Origin: Cellulophaga sp. BC115SP
Lineage (GTDB): Bacteria > Bacteroidota > Bacteroidia > Cytophagales > Spirosomataceae
Direction of reading: 5' to 3'
DNA length: 64,000 nucleotides
Assembly: GCF_009905545.1 (NCBI RefSeq)
Contig: NZ_JAAALB010000003.1
Location: 62,001 to 126,000, forward strand
The notes below the pieces were generated by a model. That model was not told the DNA's origin, ran no database searches, and saw nothing but the letters and a program-made list of their open reading frames with translations. The number at the start of each line of letters is the position of its first letter. Positions within the stretch are counted from its first letter, which is position 1. Below, piece by piece: positions 23,433-29,232 of this stretch. The translations under genes and the position numbers were made by a program.

Positions 23433-24644
23433 TTATTTACGAGTTGCCTTCAAATAATCGTCGATATTGGCTGGATCGAAGTTTACATCATACGTAGTTT
23501 TGAAAGGCTTCATGTCTGGTTGCATAGGTACTGCCATTTCTTTTGCTACTTCTTGATACAAATCATCCAAAATCAACTTTTCAACAATCGCTTTATAATT
23601 TGGTTCAGCTTTTAGATAACCAAAACGGACATACTGTGCCAAAAACCACATTGCGTGAGATTTGCGAGGCATATTCACGACACCATTGTTATAAAAAGTC
23701 ATGTAGTCGTCCTTGTATTTTTGAACACCCAAGTCGCAACCCAAATCGTTTGAACCTAACAAGCGAGCTTCAATTACGGGCAATGCAGCATTTACATAAT
23801 AGGGCTTAGTTAGCCATGAAGCTGCTTTTTTACGATTACCCATATTGTCTAACCAGCGACAAGCTTCAATGATAGCTTTCATCACTTTTTTCAAATCTTC
23901 TTTATCTTCTGCAGCAAATTTGCTGTTGACTACCAAAGCTTTTTCTGGGTGATGTTTCCAAATGTCTTGTGATGCAATATGTGTAAATCCTACGTTTTGA
24001 GTAACGGCAACGCCATTCCAAGGTTCACCTACACAATAGCCTTCCATATTGTCTACACGCATATTAGCTACCATTTGTGGCGGTGGAATGGTGATGATTC
24101 CTACCGATTTTTGATTGACACCTGCTGCTGCTAACCAGTTGCGTAACCATATATCATGGGTTCCTCCTGGGAAAGTCATGGCGAAGGTAACTTCCTTGCG
24201 AGCTTGTACGTTTTTGACAGCGGCAGCAGCTTTGTTTACTTCCTTGAAACCAACCATGCCACAGAAGTCCTTCGAAAGGGTAATTCCTTGTCCATTGTTG
24301 CTGATTACCATAGCGACTTTCATTTCGGAGCCAGCTTTACCACCAATTCCTGTATATACTGACAAGGGCATCGAGAAAAGACAGTGCGCTCCATCCAATT
24401 CACCATTCAAGATTTTATCACGAACATTGGCCCATGAAGCTTCTTTCGAAAGCTCAACATCGACACCATATTTTGCGAATAATCCCAACTCTTTAGCGGC
24501 TACTAGCGGAGCACAGTCTGTCAGTGGAATAAACCCTAATCTTATTTTCTTCCCAGAAGGTGTCGGATTGGCCGACAATTGTAGTGTTGTAGCTACTAAA
24601 CATACCAACACTAATACTTGCTTTAACAGAGTTTTTGCGTTCAT
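23433..24644 (-). CDS. nrtA: nitrate ABC transporter, periplasmic substrate-binding protein (NrtA/CmpA family)
   Basis: Binds nitrate (possibly nitrite) in the periplasm for NrtBD. ATG 24644 is chosen as start because it opens a clean signal peptide (AKTLLKQVLVLVCLVATTLQL, then SANPTPSG); the frame itself is open to 24689. About 403 residues. Family segments: IRLGFIPLTDCAPLVAAKELG at the N-terminal lobe (opening LGFIPLTDCAPL), the HCLFSMPLSVYTGIGG region, FPGGTHDIWLRNWLAAAG, and DNMEGYCVGEPWNG, the last being the conserved anion-site stretch of NrtA/CmpA. A UGGGGG-loop hairpin stands 28 bases before the start codon. Confidence 0.88.
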   Translation of the reverse strand: MNAKTLLKQVLVLVCLVATTLQLSANPTPSGKKIRLGFIPLTDCAPLVAAKELGLFAKYGVDVELSKEASWANVRDKILNGELDGAHCLFSMPLSVYTGIGGKAGSEMKVAMVISNNGQGITLSKDFCGMVGFKEVNKAAAAVKNVQARKEVTFAMTFPGGTHDIWLRNWLAAAGVNQKSVGIITIPPPQMVANMRVDNMEGYCVGEPWNGVAVTQNVGFTHIASQDIWKHHPEKALVVNSKFAAEDKEDLKKVMKAIIEACRWLDNMGNRKKAASWLTKPYYVNAALPVIEARLLGSNDLGCDLGVQKYKDDYMTFYNNGVVNMPRKSHAMWFLAQYVRFGYLKAEPNYKAIVEKLILDDLYQEVAKEMAVPMQPDMKPFKTTYDVNFDPANIDDYLKATRK

Positions 24645-24671
24645 AACGATTATGAAATGGTTTAAAACTAT

Positions 24672-24699
24672 CCTTAGACCGCCCCCCATCAGTCTAAGG
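24672..24699 (-). promoter_or_regulatory. UGGGGG-loop hairpin in the nrtA leader
   Basis: Minus strand: CCTTAGAC / GTCTAAGG 8-bp stem, extended by U-G and G-C pairs, with loop AUGGGGGG, that is the hexaloop UGGGGG closed by an A-G step. It ends 27 bases before the start codon. Confidence 0.65.
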
Positions 24700-25143
24700 A
24701 AGTTGTATAATGAAAAATTAGTAAGTCAGTTAAAAGGCACAAAGTGAATAGGCACATAGGTACAAAGTGTACGGGTACAAAATCACAAAGTGGTTACATA
24801 TTATGAGTGAAACTATGGAATTAAGTCTAAATGATATGGAGTTTAGAGTGTTGATAACTTGATGTTTACATTGAAGCTGTCTAAACTTTTGTAAAAACAC
24901 ATTTTATTGATTAATTCTTCGTCTTACTTTTTGTCTTGATACAAAAAGTAACCGCAGCGGCGGCCGCAAAAAAATCAAGAATTATAATCGGAGTGGCGTA
25001 CCACCTCGCTTCGCTCAAACACTATAAATTCATTGCTTACGCGAGCAAGTTTACGAAAGTTTAAACAGCTTCATTGACAACTCACCATTCACCACTCACA
25101 ATTCAAAATTCACCACTCACAATTCAAAATTCACCACTCAAAA
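24700..25143. other. nrtA upstream region with palindrome and tandem repeat
   Basis: 444 bp without a gene. Contents: TTACTTTTTGT / ACAAAAAGTAA, a perfect 11-bp inverted repeat at 24924-24951; directly behind it a short GC-rich stretch (CGCAGCGGCGGCCGC) unlike the AT-rich surroundings; and the 21-bp tandem repeat at 25091-25140. I recall the palindrome type as common between Bacteroidota genes, but could not check. Confidence 0.55.
25091..25140 (+). repeat. 21-bp tandem repeat (R5 type) behind the porin gene
   Basis: ACCACTCACAATTCAAAATTC repeated 2.4 times, ending four bases before the porin stop codon on the other strand. Related CACAATTCACAACTCA sequence lies at 15418-15445, on the stop codon of the rubredoxin-fused gene. 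Confidence 0.8.
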
Positions 25144-26676
25144 CTATCTTAACGCTACTGGTTTTGAGTAAAAGAAATCTGGACGAATGTTAATCATTGC
25201 ATAAAACCATGTGCCTGTTTTGTCGTAAGTTGCTGTTGCACTTTGTGCTTTGGCAATTGGCATACTGTCGGTCGCATTCATGATTGAATAGCCCAATTCG
25301 ATATTGGTAAACTTGTTCATGTTGTAATTCAACGTAAAGTCTAACTCAGTACCTAATTGGTTGTTAATTGTGTTTTTGATACCATCAGAACCTGTTTTTA
25401 CCATAGCTTTGTTTAAGGCAAATGAGTGATAATCCAAGCCAACTGTCAACACATTGGTCGTATATTTTACCTTGAAATAAGCATTGTTCAAGCCTCCTGC
25501 TGGTGCACCTGTACCTACATAAAAGTAATCCATATAGCCCCAGTGACGGTGTGGTGTTCCATAAAGTGGGTCAAAGCGATTGTCTTTGCCACTAGGATTT
25601 ACAGCGTCATTTCCTGAAAGAACATCATATCCTGGCGTAAAAGCCCATTTACCTTTTTGGTAAGTTGCCGAAAGCGTGTAGTGATAAGCATCCATGTCTA
25701 CCCCGTCACGATTTTTGCCTGTTTGTGCATAATATGCTCCTTGAAAAGCAATTTTACCAAATCCTGAAGCATTGCCCAACGTGTGATTAACCATCAAACC
25801 ATAAGTTACACGACTATTAACCCCTTTTTGTCCTCTAAAATCTTTTCCATACAAATACCCTGTCGTACTGTTTCCAACCAAGGTATCCATCTTATATTTC
25901 CCAAAATCATCGTTGAAAAATAGACCTGAAAATTTGGTCTGATTAAACTTACGTGATATATATACGCTTTTGAATGATTTGTAATCTTGCGTCGCACCAT
26001 TGGTACTTGGATTACTCGTAAATACTGCTCCGTTTGGAATCGTTCCTGCGGGTACTGCTACCAAAGCGCCTTTCGAATTGGGCATATACTGTGGTGTGTT
26101 GGCAGGCGTATAAATGGTTCCAGTTGTATTAAAAGCATCAGTATTTTGGTTGAAAGCATAACCTACATCAAACTGCCAACCTGAGTGCATTCCTTTGAGT
26201 AATACCATGTCGTGACGACGACTTTGTTGCAACCAATCCAAATTTCCTATTAATCTTACATCGTCATAACTTAATTCTTGGCGACCAATTTTGATTGAAA
26301 GTTGATCAACTGCTTTGAATTTAATCGTAGTGTCAGCTTTGTTGGCTAAGGTTACCTCAGCCCATCCTTCATGTAACATCAGGCGACTGCCATCGTTGTT
26401 TGAGATACTCGAAGCATCTTGTCCCCATACGCGAATGTCCTGAACGGTAGCTCCAAATGTTACTCGATCCCATTTGTATCCAAAAATCAAGCGAGTACGT
26501 TGAGAAGTAAATGCCGCGGCATCTGAACCTGTCGGTACTAAATTACCTAGTCCATTACGAACCTCAGTACGAGTTCTAACTTGACCTTGAAGAGTGAATT
26601 GTGCCTTCGACACAAAGTGAGTAGAAACCCCCACCAATAAGGCTAATGCAGCCTTGATTTTGTAAGTTTTTTTCAT
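25144..26676 (-). CDS. outer-membrane porin, alginate-export-like beta-barrel
   Basis: Protein of 510 residues with a signal peptide (KIKAALALLVGVSTHFVSKA, cleaved before QFTLQGQ). The mature part is rich in alternating strands: FTLQGQVRTRTEVRNG, RTRLIFGYKWDRVTFGATVQ, and IKIGRQELSYDDVRLIGNLDWLQQ (described by its core KIGRQELSYD), which is the signature stretch of the alginate-export family of porins. The C-terminus ends in aromatic strands (WFYAMINIRPDFFYSKP). Its place between narK and nrtA suggests passage of nitrate or nitrite through the outer membrane; alginate transport is unlikely here. A UGGGGG-loop hairpin lies 48 bases before the start. Confidence 0.82.
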   Translation of the reverse strand: MKKTYKIKAALALLVGVSTHFVSKAQFTLQGQVRTRTEVRNGLGNLVPTGSDAAAFTSQRTRLIFGYKWDRVTFGATVQDIRVWGQDASSISNNDGSRLMLHEGWAEVTLANKADTTIKFKAVDQLSIKIGRQELSYDDVRLIGNLDWLQQSRRHDMVLLKGMHSGWQFDVGYAFNQNTDAFNTTGTIYTPANTPQYMPNSKGALVAVPAGTIPNGAVFTSNPSTNGATQDYKSFKSVYISRKFNQTKFSGLFFNDDFGKYKMDTLVGNSTTGYLYGKDFRGQKGVNSRVTYGLMVNHTLGNASGFGKIAFQGAYYAQTGKNRDGVDMDAYHYTLSATYQKGKWAFTPGYDVLSGNDAVNPSGKDNRFDPLYGTPHRHWGYMDYFYVGTGAPAGGLNNAYFKVKYTTNVLTVGLDYHSFALNKAMVKTGSDGIKNTINNQLGTELDFTLNYNMNKFTNIELGYSIMNATDSMPIAKAQSATATYDKTGTWFYAMINIRPDFFYSKPVALR

Positions 26677-26723
26677 ACTTTTGTAGCTGATTGTAAGATT
26701 TTAACAGAGTTTTGCGATTTTCG

Positions 26724-26752
26724 CCCGAATTGAGACCCCCATCTCATTCGGG
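26724..26752 (-). promoter_or_regulatory. UGGGGG-loop hairpin in the porin leader
   Basis: Minus strand: CCCGAATGAGA / TCTCAATTCGGG pair over 11 bp with one bulged base; loop TGGGGG. On the plus strand the same hairpin is followed by TTTTTTT, but no plus-strand gene precedes it. Confidence 0.65.
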
Positions 26753-26792
26753 TTTTTTTGTTTGTTTTAAAAGAAAAATAGATGAGAATGGT

Positions 26793-26855
26793 AGATTTTT
26801 GATTTCCAATTTTAGGATTTACTGCTATAATTCCGAAATCAAAAATCCTAAATCT
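26793..26855. repeat. R3 intergenic palindromic repeat, copy 2
   Basis: GATTTTTGATTTC (26794-26806) and GAAATCAAAAATC (26835-26847), 13-bp perfect inverted repeat between narK and the porin gene. Confidence 0.8.
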
Positions 26856-26865
26856 GAAATATCAT

Positions 26866-28176
26866 TTAAGCCATTTCTGGTTCTAACTTTAATTTTTCTG
26901 AAGTTTGTGATTGTTTTTCGAAACGACTTATGGCTACCACTAAGCCAATAGCGCCTACCACTAAACCGATATAGAAGAAAGCTTGGTTATAAGTAATGTT
27001 TTCAGATTTGAATAAAAAGCCTGCTAGCACACCACCAAGGTTGCCACCAGCACCTACGATTCCTGAAACAGAGCCTACATTTTTTGAATCAATAAAAGGT
27101 ACGATTGCATAAGTGGCGCCGTTTGCCATTTTCAAGAAGAAAGCAAAACCTAACATCGCTACCACTGCCATAGCCAAAGAATTGGTTTGAGCGAAGAGAA
27201 TAATACCTATACCCTCAAAAGTCAACAATCCTGCTAATAACCATCCTTTACCACGCATTCCCATTTTAGCACCTACTTTGTCGGCTACGATGCCTCCGAT
27301 GGCTCTGGCAAACAAGTTCATGAATCCGAAGATACCTGCCAATAAGCCTGCTGTTGCTAAATCACATTTGAAGTATTCTGAAAAGTACAAAGCGGCTACA
27401 TTGTCGAACGTAATTTCGATACCAAAACAAGCTCCATAAGCTAAAAACAAAATCCATGTACGAAAATCAGAGGCTGCTGCCCAGAACGAACCTTTTGTTT
27501 GTTGTTGGCGAGTAATTTCTGAGAAGTTACCGGCTGGCGTATCTTTTGTATAACGGAAGTACACAAATGCCATTACCAATAAAATTACTCCAGGAATCAT
27601 CATGGCTAATCTCCATGCTTCAGGTTTGGTATAACCCGCTCCAACAAATGCTGCAAATACTAAAGGCATAACCATGTTAGTAATACCTCCTCCCAAGTTG
27701 CCCCAGCCTCCTGCTACAGCGTTGGCAGTTCCTTTAATTTTAGGAGCAAACATCATAGAAGTATGGTATTGTGTAATCACAAATGATGCGCCAATAACAC
27801 CGATAGCAAGACGAAACAATAAGAAGCTTTCGTAGCTATTCGCCAAACCAATACCAATTACAGGAATAGAGCCAAGGAGTAGCAAACCAGTGTACGTCAA
27901 ACGTGGACCTAACGTGTCGCATAAACGTCCGATAATTAATCGAGCAAAAATTGTTGCCGAAACCGAAGCAATCATTACATTTCCGATTTGAGCTTTGGTA
28001 AGTCCCAAATCATCTTTGACGATTTTCATCAATGGCGCGATGCCAAACCAACCAAAGAAGCAAAAGAAAAAAGTAATCCATGTAATATGAAAAGTCTTCA
28101 TTTGGATTCCTTTCCACGACAATACATTCAAGGACTCTAACGGAGCCCTGTTTGATACAGAGTTTTGCGATAACAT
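26866..28176 (-). CDS. narK: NarK-family nitrate/nitrite transporter (MFS)
   Basis: Inner-membrane nitrate uptake or nitrate/nitrite antiporter of 436 residues with twelve helices. The nitrate-signature motifs of the NNP family are seen as AGGWGNLGGGITNM in helix 5 and GAGGNLGGVLAGF in helix 11, and the conserved Arg of helix 2 lies in ARLIIGRLCD. The opening (APLESLNVLSWKGIQMKTFHIT, beginning after a short polar tail) is the usual start of Bacteroidota NarK, supporting ATG 28176. It precedes the porin on the same strand. Two tandem UGGGGG-loop hairpins occupy the leader, and a near-consensus -7 element (TTATACCTTGC) lies at about 28311-28320. Confidence 0.93.
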   Translation of the reverse strand: MLSQNSVSNRAPLESLNVLSWKGIQMKTFHITWITFFFCFFGWFGIAPLMKIVKDDLGLTKAQIGNVMIASVSATIFARLIIGRLCDTLGPRLTYTGLLLLGSIPVIGIGLANSYESFLLFRLAIGVIGASFVITQYHTSMMFAPKIKGTANAVAGGWGNLGGGITNMVMPLVFAAFVGAGYTKPEAWRLAMMIPGVILLVMAFVYFRYTKDTPAGNFSEITRQQQTKGSFWAAASDFRTWILFLAYGACFGIEITFDNVAALYFSEYFKCDLATAGLLAGIFGFMNLFARAIGGIVADKVGAKMGMRGKGWLLAGLLTFEGIGIILFAQTNSLAMAVVAMLGFAFFLKMANGATYAIVPFIDSKNVGSVSGIVGAGGNLGGVLAGFLFKSENITYNQAFFYIGLVVGAIGLVVAISRFEKQSQTSEKLKLEPEMA

Positions 28177-28198
28177 AATTTATTCCTGTTTTCAGTAA

Positions 28199-28220
28199 CA
28201 TGACTGCCCCCACAATCATA
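28199..28220 (-). promoter_or_regulatory. UGGGGG-loop hairpin 2 in the narK leader
   Basis: Minus strand: TATGATTG / CAGTCATG, 8 pairs including G-U wobbles, loop TGGGGG. It ends 22 bases before the start codon. Confidence 0.65.
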
Positions 28221-28235
28221 ATACAGATGGTTTTA

Positions 28236-28253
28236 CATTCGCCCCCACGAATG
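28236..28253 (-). promoter_or_regulatory. UGGGGG-loop hairpin 1 in the narK leader
   Basis: Minus strand: CATTCG / CGAATG, perfect 6 bp, loop TGGGGG. It is 15 bases upstream of hairpin 2, so the leader has two hexaloop hairpins in tandem. Confidence 0.7.
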
Positions 28254-28464
28254 ACCATTTTCAACTAACTGTTGAAGGGAAATAAAGAACTAAAGAGCCC
28301 AGAAAGCGGGCAAGGTATAAGATTTATTAATTTTGAGAGTGTTGATGAAAAATGAAGTAGTCTAATTTATCAAGGTAATTAGTGGAACGGTTTCGCAGAA
28401 TTATCGTTGAAACCTTTTTGTTTTATATAGTGCTTGATTACGTTCTAACTAAAATGAAATGTCC

Positions 28465-29232
28465 TTAACCACGCATCGTTCTAATTTCTTCTTTTAGGTA
28501 AGTTTCTATAAACTCTGGATGAAGACTTACCACTTCGCCAATGACAATCACTGCTGGATTGCTGAGTTTTTGTGTTTTTACTTTTGCTCCAATATCCTCA
28601 ATAGTTCCGACAAGATACTTGGCGTTGTCGCGTGTGCCATTTTGAACTATTGCTACTGGTGTATCTTGTTTTTGGTAGTCAGTAAAAATAGCACAAATCT
28701 GTTCTAATTTACTCATACCCATCAGCACTACCACCGTTGCGGTTGACTGTGCCGCTAGTTTAATATCATTTGAAAGTTCACCTGTTTTGGTCGTGCCAGT
28801 AATTACCCAAAAACTTTCAGCATATCCTCTCGTGGTAACTGGAATTCCTACCGAAGCTGGCGCCGCAATGGCAGAAGTAACACCCGAAATCACTTCACAA
28901 GGAATATTAAATGAACGAACATATTCTATTTCTTCGAAGCCTCTTCCAAAAACAAAAGGATCGCCACCTTTGAGCCTTACTACATGTCCATATTCAAGGG
29001 CCAATTGTACTATCTGATAATTGATTTGCTCTTGCGTATAAACATATTTACCTAAGCGTTTTCCCACATATACTTTTACGGCATCTGGCTTGGCATACGC
29101 CAAAAGTTCTTCATTAGCTAAGGCATCATAGAGAATAACATCTGCTGACTCTATTGCTTTGATGCCTTTTAGAGTAATTAACTCTATATCACCTGGGCCA
29201 GCTCCAATCAAACTTATTCTTGGAATATTCAT
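28465..29232 (-). CDS. cobA: uroporphyrinogen-III C-methyltransferase (siroheme synthesis)
   Basis: SAM-dependent enzyme that methylates uroporphyrinogen III twice to precorrin-2, the precursor of siroheme for NirB. Length 255 residues is the single-domain SUMT size; the CysG oxidase/chelatase domain is absent. Family motifs: ISLIGAGPGDIELIT at the start (VGAGPGD type), YDALANEELL, then RLKGGDPFVFGRG around residue 85, VISGVTSAIAAPASVGIPVTTRG and the late GEVVSLHPE. It is divergent from nirB, the enzyme that needs its product, with a 444-bp shared control region. It is 288 bp upstream of narK on the same strand, with leader hairpins in between, so it is probably a separate unit. Confidence 0.92.
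   Translation of the reverse strand: MNIPRISLIGAGPGDIELITLKGIKAIESADVILYDALANEELLAYAKPDAVKVYVGKRLGKYVYTQEQINYQIVQLALEYGHVVRLKGGDPFVFGRGFEEIEYVRSFNIPCEVISGVTSAIAAPASVGIPVTTRGYAESFWVITGTTKTGELSNDIKLAAQSTATVVVLMGMSKLEQICAIFTDYQKQDTPVAIVQNGTRDNAKYLVGTIEDIGAKVKTQKLSNPAVIVIGEVVSLHPEFIETYLKEEIRTMRG

Follow-up and report, generated by a model that had tools for sequence, protein, structure and literature searches.

The C-rich hairpin loops of RNAIII and related RNAs in Staphylococcus aureus bind to G-rich message loops and block translation; RNAIII is about 500 nt long and binds Shine-Dalgarno regions. Hexaloop hairpins are also found in the nitrate-assimilation leader of Klebsiella nasF, where the partner is a protein, the antiterminator NasR, whose ANTAR domain recognizes loops with A at position 1 and G at position 4. 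In Bacteroidota, base-pairing small RNAs seem to be little known beyond a few genera. Here we analyze a 64,000-nt stretch of Cellulophaga sp. BC115SP (contig NZ_JAAALB010000003.1, positions 62,001 to 126,000; hereafter “the window”), whose nitrate cluster would encode an RNA of approximately 70 nt on the strand opposite the porin, narK and nrt genes, with a 5' hairpin carrying an antisense seed and a terminator hairpin carrying a C-rich six-base loop. This predicted RNA resembles RNAIII in its C-rich loop, but differs from it in length and binding sites; as in the NasR system, hexaloop hairpins of nitrate-gene leaders are concerned, but with another loop rule. The cluster contains narK, a porin-like gene, nrtABC, a molybdopterin (nitrate) reductase, cobA, nirBD and a NarX/NarL-like pair (names assigned from Pfam hits).

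Several described RNAs share part of this design. For RepG of Helicobacter pylori, the terminator loop is stated to be sufficient for repression (PMC8295292); a base-pairing RNA with a working terminator loop is thus already known in kind. The likeness extends to a C-rich terminator loop complementary to a G-rich stretch of the target leader; RepG, however, binds a length-variable homopolymeric G-repeat in tlpB (PMC8295292), whereas here the G-rich stretch is a fixed hairpin loop, UGGGGG being found at the same places in many genomes of the RNA class of the window (class A; the loop was itself the search pattern). Also unlike RepG, a second seed lies here at the start codon, the RNA lies beside its predicted targets, and other genes and another phylum are involved. 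NarS of E. coli and Salmonella is likewise a small RNA from a nitrate/nitrite transport locus and acts on nitrite transport; it is processed from the narK 3' untranslated region, binds Hfq and represses nirC (PMC8139620). The RNA described here has, by contrast, a predicted antisense promoter of its own, and a search found no Hfq in six genomes (the control scored above the cut-off in 5 of 14 named genomes). From Bacteroidota there is SnoA of Bacteroides thetaiotaomicron, which is encoded antisense to a nitrogen-oxide gene across its -7 region. A seed has been proposed for this RNA, which also has a second target and promotes the expression of hcp and nrfA; the excerpted text describes no terminator-loop kissing (PMC13370916). 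Among the results listed in searches of open-licence papers, none concerned a small RNA from Flectobacillus, Arcicella or Spirosoma, or one for nitrate assimilation with such a design. Among the 4227 models of Rfam 15, none matched the window or eight related loci at gathering scores, and none matched positions 24500-28500 at an expectation value (E) of 5 or lower. What is new is that the target is a hairpin loop, that a start-codon seed is added, where the gene lies in the genome, and that the target changes within a family.

A first-pass annotation of the window had reported four hairpins with the identical loop UGGGGG ahead of narK (two), the porin-like gene and nrtA. The four TGGGGG sites are indeed on the minus strand at the places given. 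The bare letters are not enriched in the window (11 sites vs. 13.1 expected); hexaloops of TGGGGG closed by at least 5 bp occur three times against 0.11 expected, a number reached in 0 of 200 dinucleotide shuffles, and their closed fraction (3/11) is the highest among hexamers with at least eight occurrences in the window. The hairpins are real and not a product of chance. Three of the four pass a test for at least 4 bp; the fourth does not, since the nrtA hairpin (24671..24700, minus strand; seen in the sequence and in relatives) is imperfect next to its loop in the window genome, where it reads CCTTAGACTG-AUGGGGGG-CGGTCTAAGG. The relative G066 has it as a hexaloop hairpin with a perfect stem of 12 bp. 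The spacing of 22-47 nt to the gene starts is likewise right for three hairpins, which end 22, 47 and 26 nt before the start; for the outer narK hairpin the distance to the start codon is 59 nt. The two narK hairpins occupy 28236..28253 (loop 28242-28247) and 28199..28220 (loop 28207-28212), both on the minus strand and both backed by sequence, relatives and the shuffle test. The predicted target genes are narK, an MFS transporter (26866..28176, minus strand; Pfam hit), and nrtA, the NMT1-like binding protein of an ABC transporter (23433..24644, minus strand; Pfam hit, start codon from sequence). Gene starts are those of mechanically called open reading frames, except that the nrtA starts of the window and of loci L031 and L032 were shifted by hand; the hand-set window start was off by 1 and 3 nt in the complement-run and duplex tests described below. 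The mechanical nrtA frame opens at an in-frame ATG at 24689, beside the hairpin loop, and the likelier start is the ATG at 24644.

The annotation had named NasR as the known precedent. Tandem hexaloops in the leader of a nitrate gene do recall Klebsiella nasF; nonetheless, loop position 1 is U (in class A as well as in class C, introduced below), position 4 is G, or C in class C, and no ANTAR domain was found in the genome at E ≤ 10, in a search in which no control genome passed the family cut-off. We therefore give hardly any credence to an ANTAR-type antiterminator as the binder of these hairpins.

The porin hairpin, taken at first for a sibling of the others, is instead the antisense image of a predicted small-RNA terminator. 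The predicted small RNA gene (26688..26759, plus strand, about 72 nt, aligned in 13 genomes) is antisense to the leader of the porin-like gene (25144..26676, minus strand; Alginate_exp family, Pfam hit), and its RNA folds in silico into two hairpins: a 5' hairpin at 26689..26719, holding the seed, and an intrinsic terminator at 26723..26759, with the loop CCCCCA at 26736-26741 and a U-tract at 26753-26759. On the minus strand, 26723..26759 is the porin hairpin of the annotation. The terminator reads CCCGAATTGAGA-CCCCCA-TCTCATTCGGG-TTTTTTT; a simple terminator scan did not list it because of an internal mismatch in the stem. On the strand opposite the hairpins, at least six T among the eight nucleotides after the stem were found in all 11 porin hairpins of the set (which does not include L036 and L041, whose porin stems are imperfect and did not reach the required 4 bp), compared with 2/12 first narK hairpins, 0/5 second narK hairpins and 1/11 nrtA hairpins. 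Across all classes of the RNA, a GC-rich 3' hairpin with a U-tract is present in 49 of 49 predicted RNAs, with at least six T of eight within 8-22 nt of the loop (L041 has a broken stem and a more distant T-run). An earlier form of this rule, which in some rows met a TTT inside the stem, gave at least five T in 11/13 RNAs of class A, 28/29 of class B and 6/6 of class C.

A candidate promoter precedes the gene. A Flavobacterium psychrophilum study gives TAnnTTTG at -12 to -5 (PMC9723704); with the -7 box in that position, the +1 of the predicted small RNA falls at 26688. The corresponding element here, TACTTTTG (26676..26683, plus strand), fits the Bacteroidota -7 box, is kept in relatives and overlaps the porin start codon. 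A -33 TTG (26654..26656, plus strand) lies 19 nt before it and is found at this spacing in 5/5 genomes of g1, the genus of the window genome; it is weak on its own, since the window holds ten TTG-N18-21-TANNTTTG sites. TANNTTTG alone occurs 0.75 times per kb and strand in the window; it stands at the same place in the class-A loci shown, except that of genus g5 (L113), and also in six class-C loci. CAAANNTA is found at 14/68 porin starts vs. 9/421 other starts. An RNA model (R3) of 13 of the 14 class-A RNAs (alignment A2; L040 was left out as a near repeat of L039) gave one match per genome, with E = 2.3e-15 in the window genome and matches in 15 of 150 family genomes at E ≤ 1.1e-10; all 14 matches in narK-bearing genomes lie within 6 kb of narK, on the opposite strand.

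Downstream of the hairpins a second element, AAACTCTGTTA or close variants of it, had been missed by the annotation. It lies in the untranslated leader of the porin-like gene and within the first codons of narK (in g1 only) and nrtA, and the order of hairpin and downstream motif is identical in the three leaders. A shared piece that is untranslated in one gene and coding in two points to contact with a nucleic acid. The annotation had suggested a protein or a C-rich RNA as the binder, and the cluster itself is predicted to encode a C-rich RNA: the terminator loop CCCCCA complements the UGGGGG loops of the narK and nrtA hairpins, the 5' hairpin contains the complement of the second element, and the two contacts are arranged in antiparallel order, as one RNA reaching both would need. 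Within the seed (26700..26718, plus strand), 26704-26718 complements narK and 26700-26713 complements nrtA; the matching stretches are narK codons 2-7 (28157..28171, minus strand, 15 nt) and nrtA codons 4-8 (24622..24635, minus strand, 14 nt), both perfectly complementary. Among 42 gene starts of the window, the longest complement runs are those of the porin-like gene in cis (19 nt), narK (15) and nrtA (14), the next being 9 nt. We also considered boxA/boxB-like antitermination, since AACTCTGTTA presumably resembles boxA, and set it aside: the 15-mer around AACTCTGTTA is not enriched genome-wide (forward and reverse matches with up to two mismatches were fewer than those of a reversed-pattern control in 9/9 genomes), and complementarity explains AACTCTGTTA better.

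Judging from these complementarities, it is probable that a base-pairing small RNA represses nitrate assimilation at the start of translation, through a loop-loop kissing contact and a start-codon seed. The narK and nrtA hairpins present the complementary loop, and so RNA and message would first form this GC-rich kissing contact; the seed would then pair over narK codons 2-7 and nrtA codons 4-8 and block translation start. Pairing over the region of codons 2-8 commonly blocks the initiating ribosome. Since the RNA gene runs antisense to the porin leader, this RNA would also cover the porin message, in cis. Two antiparallel contacts would form a two-site grip suited to bacteria without Hfq, and the apparent absence of Hfq, none being found in six genomes, may be why two contacts are used. 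In class B, described below, the corresponding RNA gene matches nirB instead. More speculatively, head-on transcription from the porin side might keep the RNA low when nitrate induces the cluster. The predicted terminator, the -7 box, the complementarity, its conservation and a lineage-specific matching at several sites can be read from the letters; from them we infer expression of the RNA, kissing of the loops and a repressive outcome.

The annotation's expectation that the loop be kept in orthologous leaders held among most relatives read. A TGGGGG hairpin precedes narK in 13 of the 14 narK-bearing genomes read (genera g1, g36, g28, g5 and g9, g36 being Arcicella) and nrtA in 11 of 13 nrtA-bearing ones (g1, g36, g5, g9 and g10; G005 and G009 lack it); narK itself is present in 104 of 150 family genomes searched. 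The composite motif was recovered in ten records, from Flectobacillus, Arcicella and other Cytophagales. In an alignment of 22 hairpins from several genes and genomes (A1, all sites preselected for at least 4 bp), 81.8% of stem cells pair vs. 47.8% after shuffling, and the covariation score is 0.93 vs. 0.26 (0/500 shuffles); the number of pairs with double changes, 8 of 8, is not above the shuffles (7.6). The annotation was right in taking a constant loop on varying, still-pairing stems as a pointer to RNA. In a scan with a model of the hairpins, all matches at E < 0.02 in nine genomes fall in the nitrate cluster; at E ≤ 0.5, 83 of 150 family genomes have matches, mostly away from narK. These off-cluster matches are probably chance. 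As candidates for further regulon members they were set aside on that ground after inspection of five loci; 20 off-cluster places include 12 hairpins of at least 5 bp, mostly within or antisense to open frames. Two loci of genus g27 (L185 and L187) carry a similar TGGGGG-loop hairpin just before a gene beginning MKIKVCGMRDVEN or close to it, presumably trpF, outside the nitrate cluster.

One more conserved hairpin lies directly before the first narK hairpin, at 28260-28279 (minus strand), and also occurs in L031, L035, L036, L039, L112, L113 and L034. Its layout is CCC, a TTCAAC/GTTGAA stem, then AAAA and a GTC-like stretch; the stem is TTTGG/CCAAA in L112 and different again in L034. It shows no visible match to the predicted small RNA.

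The complementarity to the target translation starts is conserved and beyond chance. Complement runs to the genome's own RNA measure 11-15 nt for nrtA in 11/12 genomes and 15-18 nt for narK in five g1 genomes, and g5 has a 10-nt run upstream of the likely narK start; in g9, the own RNA fits nrtA over 15 nt and the RNAs of other genomes over at most 12. Duplex z-scores against shuffles fall below -3 in 11/12 cases for nrtA, in 5/13 for narK and in none for the remaining cluster genes. When own and swapped RNAs were compared by permutation, p was 0.0004 for class-A nrtA and 0/5000 for narK, values that overstate independence because relatedness was not removed. These data bear on the possibility that the antisense RNA acts on the porin-like gene only in cis, the narK and nrtA leaders being look-alikes derived from a duplicated porin leader. 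Such an origin would agree with an RNA fully antisense to the porin leader and with the letters TCGCAAAACTCTGT common to narK and porin. It accounts poorly, however, for the constancy of loop and seed on stems that vary from hairpin to hairpin within a genome, for a match that is inside the coding sequence in narK and nrtA and outside it in the porin, for the better average fit of the own RNA, and for the nirB matches of class B; we consider it very unlikely.

Across the family, the predicted RNA gene is represented by at least three sequence classes, assigned by eye (L123, L150, L168 and L169 fit none of the three and are outside the duplex test). Class B comprises 29 loci, all from other genera; the pattern TTTT[CT]TTTGA served to collect them, L122 and L158 were added by hand, and L131 was dropped; the RNA gene lies in the gap between cobA and the porin-like gene, well upstream of the latter, and matches the divergent nirB. 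TTG precedes TTTCTTTG by about 20 nt (18-21) in 27/27 loci, which were preselected by that -7 pattern, and the terminator loop is CCCCCA with few variants. A model of 28 of the 29 RNAs (alignment A3; L158, with an insertion and cut by hand, was left out) gave one match per genome in 41 of 150 family genomes at E ≤ 1e-10, and all 41 strong matches lie within 6 kb of narK on the opposite strand. Among 291 genomes of the order, this model found nothing strong outside the family and one genome of another family at E = 0.008, in a search that is blind to the other classes, the class-B model not finding class A. An impression that the system is restricted to Flectobacillus and Arcicella, gained from model matches near narK, was overturned by reading the leaders; several leaders of g32 and g12 were also read, and show no such RNA gene before the porin.

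The annotation had placed the hairpins ahead of nitrate transport genes and found none ahead of nirB in the window. The element is not confined to nitrate transport: nirB is the predicted target in most other genera read, and clearly so in class B, and its matching changes are specific to lineages. Between -40 and +30, a run of at least 8 nt to the own RNA is found in 23 of 25 class-B nirB leaders (L149 and L154 have none), typical matches being ACAGGGTT near -37 and AACACAAAC in the first codons. The duplex z-score is below -3 in 25/29 loci, nirB is the best gene of the cluster in 27/29, and no other cluster gene falls below -3. Own RNAs outdid swapped ones at 0/5000 for class-B nirB and at p = 0.086 for class-C nirB, relatedness again not being removed. 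GGGG occurs at -110 to -45 in 21/29 class-B nirB leaders vs. 0/29 for cobA, 3/27 for nirD, 4/27 for narX and 3/29 for the porin, and where a GGG-containing loop could be scored as a hairpin in class-B nirB leaders (24 of them), the number of pairs is 8.3 vs. 5.4 with shuffled flanks. Matching changes in nirB and RNA are seen in L165 (ACAAACCCGTTT/AAACGGGTTTGT), L167 (ACAAACCTGTT/AACAGGTTTGT) and L128 (GACAACCCG/CGGGTTGTC), and in L158 the match is 16/17 with one G-U pair.

Class C comprises six loci, in four of which nirB was testable. There, nirB has a complement to the 5' hairpin in its loop region, with a z-score below -3 in 2/4, and L132 shows a matching change. The six class-C porin leaders, searched for their own loop, contain it at eight sites other than the terminator, and every one of these has at least 5 of 8 flanking pairs (a value of 6 of 8 is reached at 4.2% of background positions); a broader scan of these leaders listed no hairpin with another loop. 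The loops are UGGCGG, but UGGCAG in L129; two loci of g22 carry UUGGAG in both places, L169 with a 4-bp stem. Thus, as read from these alignments of predicted RNAs and leaders, the loops of RNA and messages change together.

Two further features of the porin leaders were noted. In L123 (g27), three TGGGGG hairpins lie at -225, -110 and -68 before the porin, the one at -68 having the longest A-run in front (terminator type). In class-B leaders such as L118, L126 and L156, the porin start is immediately preceded by TTCATTTTC(TT), and its reverse complement, (AA)GAAAATGAA, lies in the promoter region of the small RNA; the two could pair, or could be two copies of a promoter element.

The main competing explanation is that a regulatory protein binds a sense-strand RNA element, the G-loop hairpin plus AAACUCUGUUA, in the porin, narK and nrtA leaders, the antisense terminator and promoter being coincidental. 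Complementarity to the RNA is at the same time similarity to the porin leader, so that the letters alone also fit a protein on a shared sense element. In its favor, hairpin and downstream motif follow in the same order in the three leaders. On the other hand, the T-run is found mostly at the porin hairpin and there only on the opposite strand, a -7 box lies at the right distance, and no ANTAR domain was found; furthermore, loop switches common to the hairpins of one genome are easy for base pairing and hard for a protein, and in class B the RNA gene is found at some distance upstream of the porin, its match being to nirB, which is divergent. Taken together, a T-run on one side only, a -7 box, loops that switch jointly and a class-B gene remote from the porin start favor the RNA, and we judge the protein unlikely, if less so than action in cis only.

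Several observations weigh against a base-pairing RNA as proposed here. The RNA is a prediction from sequence. Its letters are the same whether they represent a shared sense element or a complement, and a G-U asymmetry test of the two (alignments scoring at least 9) gave 11 to 6, which does not separate them. As for the promoter, the -33 TTG is found at its spacing in 0/6 genomes of g36 and g28, g5 lacks TANNTTTG, and in class A the overlap of the -7 box with the porin start codon means that start-codon context could explain part of its conservation. Pairing is also uneven: the narK run is only 6-8 nt in g36, g28 and g9, where the seed is missing and at best the loop contact is left; narK of G096 lacks the hairpin as well; a foreign RNA has a longer exact run to nrtA than the own RNA in 5/12 genomes; five of the 24 class-B nirB hairpins pair less than the shuffled mean; and two class-C loci have no nirB. 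Finally, the sense strand over the proposed class-B promoter holds a frame of five codons with a stop at codon 6 in 27/27 loci (once TGA for TAA), a conservation that agrees with the protein explanation and may favor some sense-strand function there. This frame reads MKKTR*, MKKSD*, MKKTS* and similar in loci such as L118, L125 and L128, and may be a remnant of a porin start, a leader peptide or a by-product of promoter spacing.

Our preferred reading remains a small RNA acting on the nitrate genes, and somewhat less confidently we favor its extension to the whole family of Flectobacillus and Arcicella: an Hfq-independent nitrate-assimilation RNA with a co-evolving loop code of at least four types, whose main target would have switched between narK/nrtA and nirB. 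One RNA with two types of contact and at least three sequence classes would be readable from the sequence, and loops and seeds that change together in several lineages provide directly testable compensatory pairs. The locus also illustrates that apparent sibling hairpins can be one RNA gene plus its targets. For the organisms themselves, the predicted RNA would exemplify, in nature, how a small RNA can exchange one target for another of the same pathway, and it suggests a post-transcriptional control of nitrate assimilation in this group.

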